From positions 1 to 39,824 of the forward strand of contig JAIRWR010000085.1 in NCBI GenBank assembly GCA_031268885.1: DNA of 39,824 bases, read 5' to 3'. Numbering within the stretch: the stretch's first letter is position 1; each line of letters begins with the position of its first letter. Source of the stretch: Synergistaceae bacterium (GTDB lineage: Bacteria; Synergistota; Synergistia; Synergistales; Synergistaceae). Below, piece by piece: positions 3,029 through 38,961 of the stretch. The notes beneath the pieces were generated by a model that ran no database searches, had not been told where the DNA came from, and worked only from the letters and a program-made list of their open reading frames with translations. The translations under genes were made by a program, and so were the position numbers.

Positions 3029-4201
3029 ATGGCAAAAGCCTTGGATATTCTGAAGAAAAACACCATGGCGCTGGTGCTGGTGCTCGTGATGCTGATGTTC
3101 CAGGCGCTCATCGTCTATAACAACAAAGGGTCGCTGTTCGCGCCGCGCAACATCACCAACCTCATCGCGCAAAACGGTTACGTTATTATCTTGGCCACCG
3201 GTATGCTTCTCTGTATACTTACGGGCGGTAATATCGACCTCTCCGTCGGATCCCAGGTGTGCCTCATAGCCGCTATAGGCGCCAATCTGATCGTGAAAAA
3301 CGGCGTCAACATATACATTGGAATACTGGCCTGCCTTGTGAGCGGGATATTGCTGGGCGCGTGGCAGGCGTTCTGGATAGCGTATATGAGGATTCCGCCT
3401 TTCATAGTGACGCTATCCGGAATGTTGGCGTACCGCGGACTCGCGCGCGTCATCCTGAAGGGTCTTACCATCTCCCCTGTACCGGCGGGATTCACCCGTT
3501 ATTTCGGCTCATTTATCGGGGGAGGCAACGACCTGCCCGCGAAACTCAGGTTCTCGCTCATCTCGGGAGTGATCGTCGTCACTCTGATGATAGCGTTTGT
3601 GGTCTATTCGAGAATCGTAAAGGCGAGAAAAAAATATCAGGTCGAGCCGGCGCTGTGGACGGTCGCTAAATACGCCGTGACCTGCGCGATAGTGATGTTT
3701 GTTTTCTACAGTTTCGGCAAAGACAGAGGCGTGCCGGTCGTCCTGATCCTCCTTGCGATAGTGGTCCTAGCTTATTATTATTACACGTCGAAAACTGTGC
3801 CGGGGCGTTATCTCTACGCGCTCGGCGGCAACGAAAAGGCCGCGAGGCTCTCGGGCGTGAATACAAACGGAGTGATGTTCTTCGCGTACACCAACATGGG
3901 TCTTTTGGCCTCAGTCGCCGCCCTGGTCTGTCTCGCCCGATTCAACTCGTCATTCCCCGATCTGGGGCGCAGTTACGAGATGGACGCCATTGGGGCCTGT
4001 TTTATCGGCGGCGCGTCCGCTTACGGCGGCGTCGGGACCGTCGGGGGGGCGCTTGTCGGGACAATTTTTATGGGAGTTCTAAATAACGGAATGTCGATAC
4101 TGGGCGTCGATCAGAACTGGCAGGAAGTAATAAAAGGCTCCGTGCTTCTGGCGGCCGTCATCTGGGATATCCTCTCCAAGAAACGAAAGACAACCGCGTA
4201 A
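3029..4201 (+). CDS. gguB: Sugar ABC transporter permease, GguB/XylH type
   Basis: This 390-residue inner-membrane protein forms the channel of the sugar importer. It is hydrophobic almost throughout, with roughly ten membrane segments. It carries the CUT2 permease blocks GGNIDLSVGS (near residue 70), RIPPFIVTLSG (about 120) and GRYLYALGGNEKAARLSGV (about 257), and a C-terminal GGASAYGGVGTVGGALVG. A charged loop with extra hydrophobic segments (about residues 190-225) makes it longer than RbsC and matches the ~390-residue XylH/GguB class. ATG at 3029 follows AAGGGGGG. It lies between the ATPase and the kinase in one operon. Confidence 0.9.
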   Translation: MAKALDILKKNTMALVLVLVMLMFQALIVYNNKGSLFAPRNITNLIAQNGYVIILATGMLLCILTGGNIDLSVGSQVCLIAAIGANLIVKNGVNIYIGILACLVSGILLGAWQAFWIAYMRIPPFIVTLSGMLAYRGLARVILKGLTISPVPAGFTRYFGSFIGGGNDLPAKLRFSLISGVIVVTLMIAFVVYSRIVKARKKYQVEPALWTVAKYAVTCAIVMFVFYSFGKDRGVPVVLILLAIVVLAYYYYTSKTVPGRYLYALGGNEKAARLSGVNTNGVMFFAYTNMGLLASVAALVCLARFNSSFPDLGRSYEMDAIGACFIGGASAYGGVGTVGGALVGTIFMGVLNNGMSILGVDQNWQEVIKGSVLLAAVIWDILSKKRKTTA

Positions 4202-36691: not shown

Positions 36692-37483
36692 TTATGAATC
36701 TGAGCGTATGAACTCAACGCCCAGGACTACAAGCCTGTCCAGTGAGGATTCACCGTCGAAGCCGGCCACGGGCGAAGTGCAATCGACAAGAAGCCTTATG
36801 ACCTGTTCTCTCCCACCGATCTCTCCAAGTCTTTTCACATATGACGAGACAGAGGCTTCGACGCAGTGACTGAGAGCTTCGCCTGAAAATGTGACTGTGT
36901 CGGACTCGGCGAGCTTCCTCGCCAGGTTCTCGTTGAACATGGTATCGCTCCACGAGTTATCGACGCCCTCGAATATCGAGAATTGATCCGTGTACGGGTT
37001 TTCCCCCTTGAATACGTATCGAACTGGTCTCCCCGTGGCTTTGCGCCAGAGATCCAACGCGTCGCGCAGTGGATCGGCGATCTGGTGTCCCCACGTCGAT
37101 ACGAGACAGTGTTCCGGCCATATTGTGAGCGATTCGGCGCCCTTCTCCCCCAGCGTGTCGAAGAGCCGTTTCGCCGCGGTTTCGTTATCCCCCGCGGCAG
37201 CGTGCCATTTGCCGCGTCTGTAGTCTTCCGGCGCAATCGATGTGAACGGCGCGGGGTGATTGGATCCTTCGTCGAGCCAGAAGCCTGGATGAAATACGGC
37301 GACCGCGTCATGAGAATCCAGTGATACGATTATGTCCGAATAGTCGCCCCTCCGCCTTCCGATGTGCCTGGCGAGCCTTTCGATATCAGCGGCCGCCCCT
37401 TCAACATACAGCGCGCCGCTGGGATCGCAGAAGTCGTTCTGGGGATCTACTATGATAAGGACATTTCTAACTTCTTTTTTCAT
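36692..37483 (-). CDS. Nicotinamidase/isochorismatase-like cysteine hydrolase
   Basis: This 263-residue hydrolase belongs to the isochorismatase superfamily. The triad is visible as D13 in VDPQNDFC, K159 in YVFKGENPYTD and C207 in EALSHCVEA. Probable metal ligands are D56 and H58 in SLDSHD. The WPEHCLVSTWGH block (122-133) is typical of nicotinamidases, which turn nicotinamide into nicotinate for NAD recycling. It is clearly longer than common PncA (about 200 residues), with added segments around residues 68-118 and 140-157, so a related amidase is possible. GAGGAGG precedes ATG 37483. Confidence 0.8.
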   Translation of the reverse strand: MKKEVRNVLIIVDPQNDFCDPSGALYVEGAAADIERLARHIGRRRGDYSDIIVSLDSHDAVAVFHPGFWLDEGSNHPAPFTSIAPEDYRRGKWHAAAGDNETAAKRLFDTLGEKGAESLTIWPEHCLVSTWGHQIADPLRDALDLWRKATGRPVRYVFKGENPYTDQFSIFEGVDNSWSDTMFNENLARKLAESDTVTFSGEALSHCVEASVSSYVKRLGEIGGREQVIRLLVDCTSPVAGFDGESSLDRLVVLGVEFIRSDS

Positions 37484-37512
37484 GATCGCGCCTCCTCATA
37501 TTCGCGAAATTC

Positions 37513-37526
37513 TGTACATTTGTACA
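37513..37526. promoter_or_regulatory. TGTACA-TT-TGTACA double palindrome, candidate operator
   Basis: TGTACA occurs at 37513-37518 and 37521-37526, each half a palindrome itself, separated by TT. It is 30 bases upstream of the - strand hydrolase start, where a repressor could block the promoter or ribosome access. No convincing -35/-10 pair is seen beside it. The regulator is unknown. Confidence 0.4.
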
Positions 37527-37692
37527 ATGCCCAGGTTGCCGCCAAACACAATGGCGTTTTCGCCTTCCAAATGTACTATACCATCATTGAGGCGCAAAGC
37601 TCCACAAAGATGAACGGATATACGCGCGCCGGCGGGTGAGATATTCCAGAGCGAAAGTTCATCCGATTATTGGAGCGCTTGAAACCATATAT

Positions 37693-37890
37693 CGGCCGGC
37701 TACAGCGGCAGACGCGCGTTCCGGCCGGGACAGACAGTCCAACGCGCGATGACCGCGCCGAAAAATTTCAAACCCACAGATCTTCGGCGCGGCTCGTTTA
37801 AGGACGCACGCACACAAAACTCCTTCCAACAACGCAACATCAACAGACTGTAACACGAACCGCGGCTTGGGTCTCGAACAAGCCGCGGTT
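37693..37890. other. Three consecutive perfect hairpins in a gene-free divergent gap
   Basis: Stem 1 pairs CGGCCGG (37693-37699) with CCGGCCG (37721-37727). Stem 2 pairs CCGCGCCGAA (37753-37762) with TTCGGCGCGG (37783-37792), 20-base loop. Stem 3 pairs AACCGCGGCTTG (37858-37869) with CAAGCCGCGGTT (37879-37890), 9-base loop, followed on the + strand by TATGTTA. Stem 3 looks like a terminator, yet no gene ends before it on the + strand. A small RNA reading + and ending there, or a structured leader of the - strand hydrolase gene, would explain it. I recognise no known riboswitch, 6S, SRP or tmRNA signature. The 37484-37986 gap has no other clear feature. Confidence 0.45.
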
Positions 37891-37913
37891 TATGTTACGC
37901 GGCGTCCTCTCTG

Positions 37914-37942
37914 TTGGATGTCTCGATGTCCGATGTTAAACT
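37914..37942 (+). promoter_or_regulatory. Weak candidate promoter of the citG-like gene
   Basis: TTGGAT (37914-37919) and TAAACT (37937-37942) are 17 bases apart; each matches four of six consensus bases. It lies about 45 bases before the citG-like start and after the third hairpin of the gap. A TATATT at 37942-37947 could be an alternative -10. Confidence 0.35.
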
Positions 37943-37986
37943 ATATTCGCGGTCATAAAAATTTGAGCTGGATAGGGGGAGAATAC

Positions 37987-38961
37987 ATGTTGAACGCGAG
38001 GCCGGATCATCGGACCGCCTGTGATCTGGCTGTCTCCCTTGGCGCCATGGCTGCCCTCGCTTCGTTCGAGGAGCTGATTCTCTCGCCTAAACCTGGTCTC
38101 GTAGACCCGACCGACAGCGGCAGCCATAACGACATGTCATGGCTGACCTTCATCAAGAGCGCTTCCGCCCTTGCTTCGACCTGGCGCGAACCGGCGTTTG
38201 AAGGTATCGTCAGCGGTTGTCTCGAACCGTCGGGCAATCCGCGTCTAAAGCTGCGGATGCTGGGAATCGAAATGGAGAGGAAGATGTTTGCGGCAACAGG
38301 CGGAGTCAACACGCATAAAGGGCTCATCTTCTCCCTCTCGCTCATCCTCGCGGCGGCAGGCGCTTGCGTCGCGAGTGGGAATTCATCTCCGGGCGCGATC
38401 TGTGCCGAGGCGGGCGGCATAGCGGCCCCGCTCGTTCAAGATGACTTGAGGAAGATAAGGGGCATGGCGTCTGAAGGAAAATCGCTGACACACGGGGAAA
38501 AAATTTTTCTCGAACACGGGATTGGCGGCATAAGGAGCGAGGCATTATCGGGCTTTCCATCCGTGCTTTCGGCGCTGGCCGAGATGGAAAACGCGATATC
38601 GCTCGGCGCCTCGCTGAAGAACGCCTCGCTGGCGGCACTGTTATTGCTGATGCGCGACGCGGAAGATACCAATATAATCCACAGGGCGGGCATAGAATTT
38701 TGGAGGGAGGCGTATAGGGACAGAATCATAATCGCAAGGGAAAATTTCGATCCCCTGAGGCCGGGACGCTATATGCCCCTGCTGGAGCTCAACCAGTTTC
38801 TAATAAGTCACAGGGCAAGTCCCGGAGGCGCGGCGGACCTCCTTGCCTGTGCTCTTTTTCTGTATCACGGTAAAATATTGTACAGCAAATACGCGCCCTC
38901 TTGGGTAAAAAGGCCGGATCTAGCAGACACAGAGATAGAGAACACCTACAGAGGTTTTTAA
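37987..38961 (+). CDS. CitG/MdcB-type triphosphoribosyl-dephospho-CoA synthase
   Basis: Members of this family make 2'-(5''-triphosphoribosyl)-3'-dephospho-CoA, the precursor of the prosthetic group of citrate lyase or malonate decarboxylase acyl carrier proteins. The 324-residue protein shows the family blocks LILSPKPGLVDPTDSGSHND (about 30-49), GGVNTHKGLIFSLSL (105-119), IGGIRSEALSGFPSVL, RDAEDTNIIHRAG and SPGGAADLLACALFL. ATG 37987 is preceded by AGGGGGAG; an open frame reaching back to 37867 runs through the third hairpin and is not used. Neither citrate lyase (citDEF, citX) nor malonate decarboxylase genes are nearby, so its client protein is unclear. Confidence 0.85.
   Translation: MLNARPDHRTACDLAVSLGAMAALASFEELILSPKPGLVDPTDSGSHNDMSWLTFIKSASALASTWREPAFEGIVSGCLEPSGNPRLKLRMLGIEMERKMFAATGGVNTHKGLIFSLSLILAAAGACVASGNSSPGAICAEAGGIAAPLVQDDLRKIRGMASEGKSLTHGEKIFLEHGIGGIRSEALSGFPSVLSALAEMENAISLGASLKNASLAALLLLMRDAEDTNIIHRAGIEFWREAYRDRIIIARENFDPLRPGRYMPLLELNQFLISHRASPGGAADLLACALFLYHGKILYSKYAPSWVKRPDLADTEIENTYRGF

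Follow-up and report, generated by a model that had tools for sequence, protein, structure and literature searches.

A conserved structured element divergent from a nicotinamidase-like gene in Synergistaceae, a probable small RNA gene

We analysed a 39,824-nucleotide stretch of DNA from a Synergistaceae bacterium (contig JAIRWR010000085.1 of assembly GCA_031268885.1), referred to here as the window. A gap at 37484–37986 lies between a nicotinamidase-like gene on the minus strand and a CitG-like gene on the plus strand. The nicotinamidase-like protein scored below the cut-off of Pfam Isochorismatase and matched nicotinamidase chains in the PDB (best E 4e-10). The features of the locus are as follows.

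36692–37483, minus strand: nicotinamidase-like gene, a neighbour of the element in all six carriers
37512–37527, no strand assigned: palindromic operator-like site CTGTACATTTGTACAA, at most two mismatches from TTGTACATATGTACAA
37548–37553, plus strand: conserved ACAATG, 20 bp before the −10-like hexamer and weak as a −35 (by eye)
37574–37579, plus strand: −10-like hexamer TACTAT of the RNA, TAYYAT in six of six carriers
37586–37900, plus strand: proposed small RNA with putative ends, from fold z-score and homologues in five genomes
37677–37689, plus strand: conserved GCTTGAAACCATA, with GCTTG..NNCCATA common to G000, G002, G018 and G069
37693–37699 with 37721–37727: perfect stem of 7 bp
37713–37720 with 37741–37748: perfect stem of 8 bp
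37753–37762 with 37783–37792: perfect stem of 10 bp
37753–37792, plus strand: hairpin 1, whose loop contains AAACCCACAGATC at 37770–37782
37819–37835, plus strand: unstructured pyrimidine-rich linker ACTCCTTCCAACAACGC, with CTCCTTCC also in G018 and G069
37850–37898, plus strand: hairpin 2, the proposed 3′ end, terminator-like with a weak T tract
37858–37869 with 37879–37890: perfect stem of 12 bp
37987–38961, plus strand: CitG-like gene (Pfam CitG, E 3.5e-66), the far-side neighbour, not kept in relatives

A preliminary description of this DNA had placed three perfect stems of 7, 10 and 12 bp in the gap. A search with loops of 3–30 nt recovered all three at those places, together with the stem of 8 bp. 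The whole 39.8-kb window contains five perfect stems of at least 10 bp, two of them inside the gap, and two of at least 12 bp, one of them inside the gap. Of 1,000 copies of the gap simulated with a first-order Markov model, none had a pair of 10-bp stems or a single 12-bp stem, and 1.1% reached four 7-bp stems. The stems of the gap are real and exceed chance. The 12-bp stem is the core of the longer hairpin at 37850–37898, whose arms of 20 nt are 90% complementary. Folding of 37590–37912 gave a z-score of −5.7 on the plus strand and −2.5 on the minus strand. The hairpins are not dispersed repeats, as a DNA search found the gap only once in its own 2.4-Mb genome. The other perfect 12-bp stem of the window, at 1431–1464 (ACAGAGCGGGCG..CGCCCGCTCTGT), is apparently intergenic and has no T tract.

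Besides the window's own genome (G000), five other Synergistaceae genomes (G002, G018, G031, G069 and G073) carry the element. G000 and G002 belong to one genus and the other four to another, so that the structure extends across two genera of one family and is not confined to close strains. Each of the six carriers has the element head-to-head with a nicotinamidase-like gene. On the far side, the window has citG and G002 has a flavodoxin/reductase-like gene; G031 and G073 have another short gene there, and G018 and G069 a ligase-like, convergent one (names other than CitG were assigned by eye). With four different far-side neighbours among six genomes, the element is not tied to the downstream gene; citG itself lies at another locus in G003 and G018. 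We read the DNA upstream of the nicotinamidase-like gene in 16 genomes of the family, whose proteins are 56–100% identical to that of the window, and at six further loci. An automatic check of 21 loci, namely 15 of those 16 genomes (all except G065) and the six further loci, found both operator and RNA at the nicotinamidase gene in six and neither in 15. Neither was present in G001, the closest relative by protein (81%), or in the upstream DNA of G065, which we read by eye. In G014, a different palindrome and a hairpin precede a convergent gene (by eye). At one further locus (L045, upstream of position 4001), we saw by eye about three direct copies of a unit of roughly 85 bases, within which the nicotinamidase gene begins.

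The six copies share a common order in the direction of the RNA: palindrome, ACAATG or a variant of it, TAYYAT, body, hairpin 1, linker and hairpin 2. The body, measured as cut, is long in G000, G002, G018 and G069 (264–350 nt), whereas G031 and G073 have a short one (130–134 nt); GCTTG..CCATA is common to the four long forms and missing from the two short ones. The loop of hairpin 1 is A-rich and shows CCCACAG in five of the six carriers, with ACCTCAG in G031; in the 21-locus check, CCCACAG was found at none of the 15 other loci. The linker reads CTCCTTCC in G000, G018 and G069, CTCATCTC in G002 (and also in G018 and G069), and ACCCCAAC in G031 and G073. Downstream of the G073 copy (L036, about 3570–3690) lies a tRNA-fragment-like stretch with repeated hairpins (by eye).

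The preliminary description had proposed covariance across related genomes as a check on the stems, and both hairpins proved to be kept with compensatory changes, hairpin 1 in six genomes and hairpin 2 in five. MAFFT alignments of hairpin 1 in all six copies were wrong, so its pairs were counted on a hand alignment: all six pairs of the stem are standard in every carrier, and in four of these pairs both partners vary from genome to genome. For hairpin 2, we used an alignment of five genomes, leaving out G031 because it could not be aligned. Here 14 of 23 pairs had changed on both sides and 78.0% of cells pair. None of 500 shuffles scored as high on four of five measures, the exception being further pair types (180/500), and slid controls had 0–7 pairs changed on both sides. 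G069 and G018 compared alone showed 8 double changes in 23 pairs, with 1 of 46 cells unpaired. Judged from these alignments, the stems are kept by compensatory changes, as for a free-standing bacterial small RNA, and a conserved structured element is well supported by the sequence comparison.

The TGTACA double palindrome reported earlier beside the start of the hydrolase gene corresponds to the operator-like site at 37512–37527. A site within four mismatches of TTGTACATATGTACAA, 53–96 bases into the upstream stretch, was found in exactly the six RNA carriers, with its best palindromic form, ATTGTACATATGTACAAT, in G069. The other 15 loci had no operator at that place; a match 506 bases away in one of them (L211) was taken as chance. 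Since the operator is missing wherever the RNA is missing, it appears to go with the RNA and not with the nicotinamidase gene in itself. From the operator centre to TAYYAT is 53.0–55.5 bp in all six carriers; this distance to the −10 on the hairpin side is fixed, whereas that from operator to gene varies. ACAATG is present in four of the six, with CAAT and CGATG variants in G018 and G031 (by eye).

Consensus scanning scored no promoter-like or terminator-like site in the window. Across the six carriers, the scan scored a promoter at TAYYAT in two (G069 and G073), left the proposed sites of G002, G018 and G031 unscored, and gave no terminator in the direction of the RNA in any. A strong 3′ hairpin is present in all six; TTTTT follows the last hairpin on the plus strand in G031 only (by eye), where the scan did not score the hairpin as a terminator and the stem has internal mismatches. 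The terminator-like match in G069 is on the opposite strand, where the convergent gene ends. In G018 and G069, the ligase-like gene runs towards hairpin 2, which may therefore also end that gene there.

Indirect signs make the plus strand the likely one to be read. On the plus strand, fold z-scores were −4.0 (G000, computed for 37586–37900), −3.4 (G002), −6.4 (G069), −4.1 (G018), −4.8 (G073) and −4.3 (G031); on the minus strand, in the same order and for the same G000 interval, they were −2.0, −3.7, −5.5, −3.2, −2.1 and −0.6. The plus strand thus folds better by z-score in five of six, G002 being slightly better on the minus strand. Hairpin 1 of G069 has one G–U pair on the plus strand only, which would be A–C on the minus strand, and the wobble pairs of hairpin 2 are divided between the two strands.

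These observations bear on the suggestion, made in the preliminary description, that the gap holds a long leader controlling the nicotinamidase-like gene. Such a 5′ leader would be transcribed on the minus strand, and its hairpins would respond to a ligand or protein and so regulate the gene. The nicotinamidase gene is indeed the one neighbour kept in all six carriers, the folds of G002 and G069 are strong on the minus strand as well, and TACTATA/TATAGTA in the window reads as a −10-like hexamer both ways, with TATAGT at 37575–37580 on the minus strand. This minus-strand reading is, however, lost in G018 and G069, where TAYYAT on the plus strand stays (by eye). The best-conserved block, like the operator, is in the stretch that separates the hairpins from the gene, in the place of a promoter. 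The fixed spacing from the operator to the −10 on the hairpin side, the better plus-strand folds and the lack of any matching Rfam leader family for the window, G002 and G073 also argue against a leader. We consider it unlikely, and less likely than a small RNA.

Two further explanations do without a non-coding transcript. An open frame crosses hairpin 1 in the window (37747–37851; 34 amino acids from ATG) and in G002 (35 amino acids from TTG); the two share KPTDLRR and both end just before hairpin 2, as a small protein gene might. The shared residues nevertheless stem from the conserved loop letters, the other four carriers have no counterpart among frames of at least eight amino acids, a stop lies beside the motif in that frame in G069 and G073 (by eye), and neither start is preceded by a clear ribosome-binding site, which makes a small protein very improbable. 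The gap might instead hold regulatory DNA and unrelated hairpins, such as a terminator or degenerate mobile sequence, and no RNA gene. That most close relatives lack the element, that the window scored neither promoter nor terminator, and that the G069 copy holds a stretch (query 79–110) matching many places in related genomes would all fit. Against this, the CCCACAG loop and the linker letters are kept while the stems change in step, which is not as expected of DNA operators or repeats, and the element is single-copy and had no match in plasmid or phage collections. We regard this explanation, too, as improbable.

A covariance-model search, also proposed in the preliminary description, found no match in the window to any of the families of Rfam 15 at the gathering score. 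Relaxing the threshold to E values of up to 5 or 2 gave only far sub-threshold matches in the sequences scanned (the window, G002 and G073), and those in the window were nonsense. The exact 13-mer AAACCCACAGATC had five matches in 52 genomes of the family, three of them being the RNA (G000, G002 and G073); the other two (G018:C63 and G014:C23) lie elsewhere and have no matching stem. This search missed G018, G031 and G069, which came from reading the upstream regions. A model built from three sequences (R1; 33 columns, with one poorly aligned stem) matched in 59 of 180 genomes of the order at E ≤ 1, and only its three training loci exceeded 31 bits. About 30 further matches were viewed as sequences; none was taken as a member and many looked like coding sequence. 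R1 misses three true members and therefore gives no distribution. A DNA search of the 180 genomes with the G069 region recovered only G018 as a real relative, along with many short matches on query 79–110. The corresponding stretch inside the G069 copy (L205:2421–2452, beginning TTAAGGGAAACGCTGACTCAATC) is a dispersed repeat of these Synergistaceae. Separate short DNA matches in G009, G029, G030 and G028 look like coding sequence. Viral contigs likewise had no match to the element, and a narrow literature search found no related report of a small RNA divergent from nicotinamidase.

Together, these data favour a plus-strand small RNA gene that spans about 37586–37900 and diverges from the nicotinamidase-like gene, a reading to which we assign a probability of roughly 0.6. 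The preliminary description had offered a small RNA running from about 37600–37690 to 37890; the five syntenic relatives, the compensatory stem changes and the fixed distance from operator to −10 support that proposal, with the amendment that the 5′ end is likely to be slightly earlier, near 37586. The element, with only six members, is probably a new small-RNA family of an ordinary kind.

In the mechanism that we propose, transcription would start at a weak promoter with the −10-like TACTAT, and a regulator bound at the palindrome would control it. The palindrome lies about 66 bp before the putative start, which is a usual place for an activator, and an activator is plausible here. As the palindrome is also in front of the nicotinamidase gene, RNA and gene would be co-regulated. 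The RNA would end at the long 3′ hairpin. Both its loop and its linker are C-rich and exposed, which suggests that it may act by base-pairing with purine-rich stretches of mRNAs, ribosome-binding sites for example, and without Hfq. We found no match to Hfq (PF17209) in G000, G001, G002, G003 and G073, in a search whose controls matched in 5 of 14 genomes and whose assemblies are 82–97% complete. Pairing with the nicotinamidase message was not above shuffles in any of the six genomes (z −0.75 to 1.28). A search for a shared target through the complement of the loop gave 23 near matches in three genomes, of which three were the RNA itself and none was clearly at the start of a shared gene.

Hfq-independent trans-acting small RNAs, such as the staphylococcal Rsa RNAs, expose C-rich loops or linkers and pair with ribosome-binding sites. 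The element resembles them in being a free-standing gene in a gap, with a strong 3′ hairpin and C-rich sequence in a loop and an unpaired stretch; it differs in coming from another phylum, in having no sequence or Rfam match and in being known from sequence alone. It also resembles divergent pairs of a small RNA and a regulated gene, with one palindrome between two divergent units and a fixed distance to the −10 of the RNA. The two-way −10-like reading in the window recalls the bidirectional promoters with symmetric −10 elements described in PMC12825309, but G018 and G069 have lost this symmetry.

Compared with divergent pairs under one operator, the regulator here is only a lead, to a NarL/LuxR-type response regulator (L242:776–1456 in G069). 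The same palindrome occurs in G018 (G018:C7, L241 at about 1501–1516) and G069 (G069:C98, L242 at about 1501–1516) at orthologous places, flanked on one side by a response regulator with a GerE (LuxR-type) domain and on the other by an OEP/TolC-like efflux gene; with two mismatches allowed, the site did not turn up at that place in G000. We treat the link as a lead because the intergenic DNA around this second palindrome is also similar between G018 and G069, and because a reversed control pattern matched too, with one match per strand in each of G069 and G073. The most far-reaching reading, to which we give a low probability, combines an Hfq-free new family absent from Rfam with a role of the RNA as an arm of a two-component regulon, with the same palindrome at nicotinamidase and at the regulator/TolC-like gene. 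If that were true, NAD salvage and envelope efflux would be connected through the RNA, in a phylum for which very few small RNAs are listed. Hardly any small RNAs have been described from Synergistota; the table of PMC9029176 gives one for Synergistetes. With its defined loop, linker and operator and its six natural variants, this candidate family offers a seed alignment that libraries lack.
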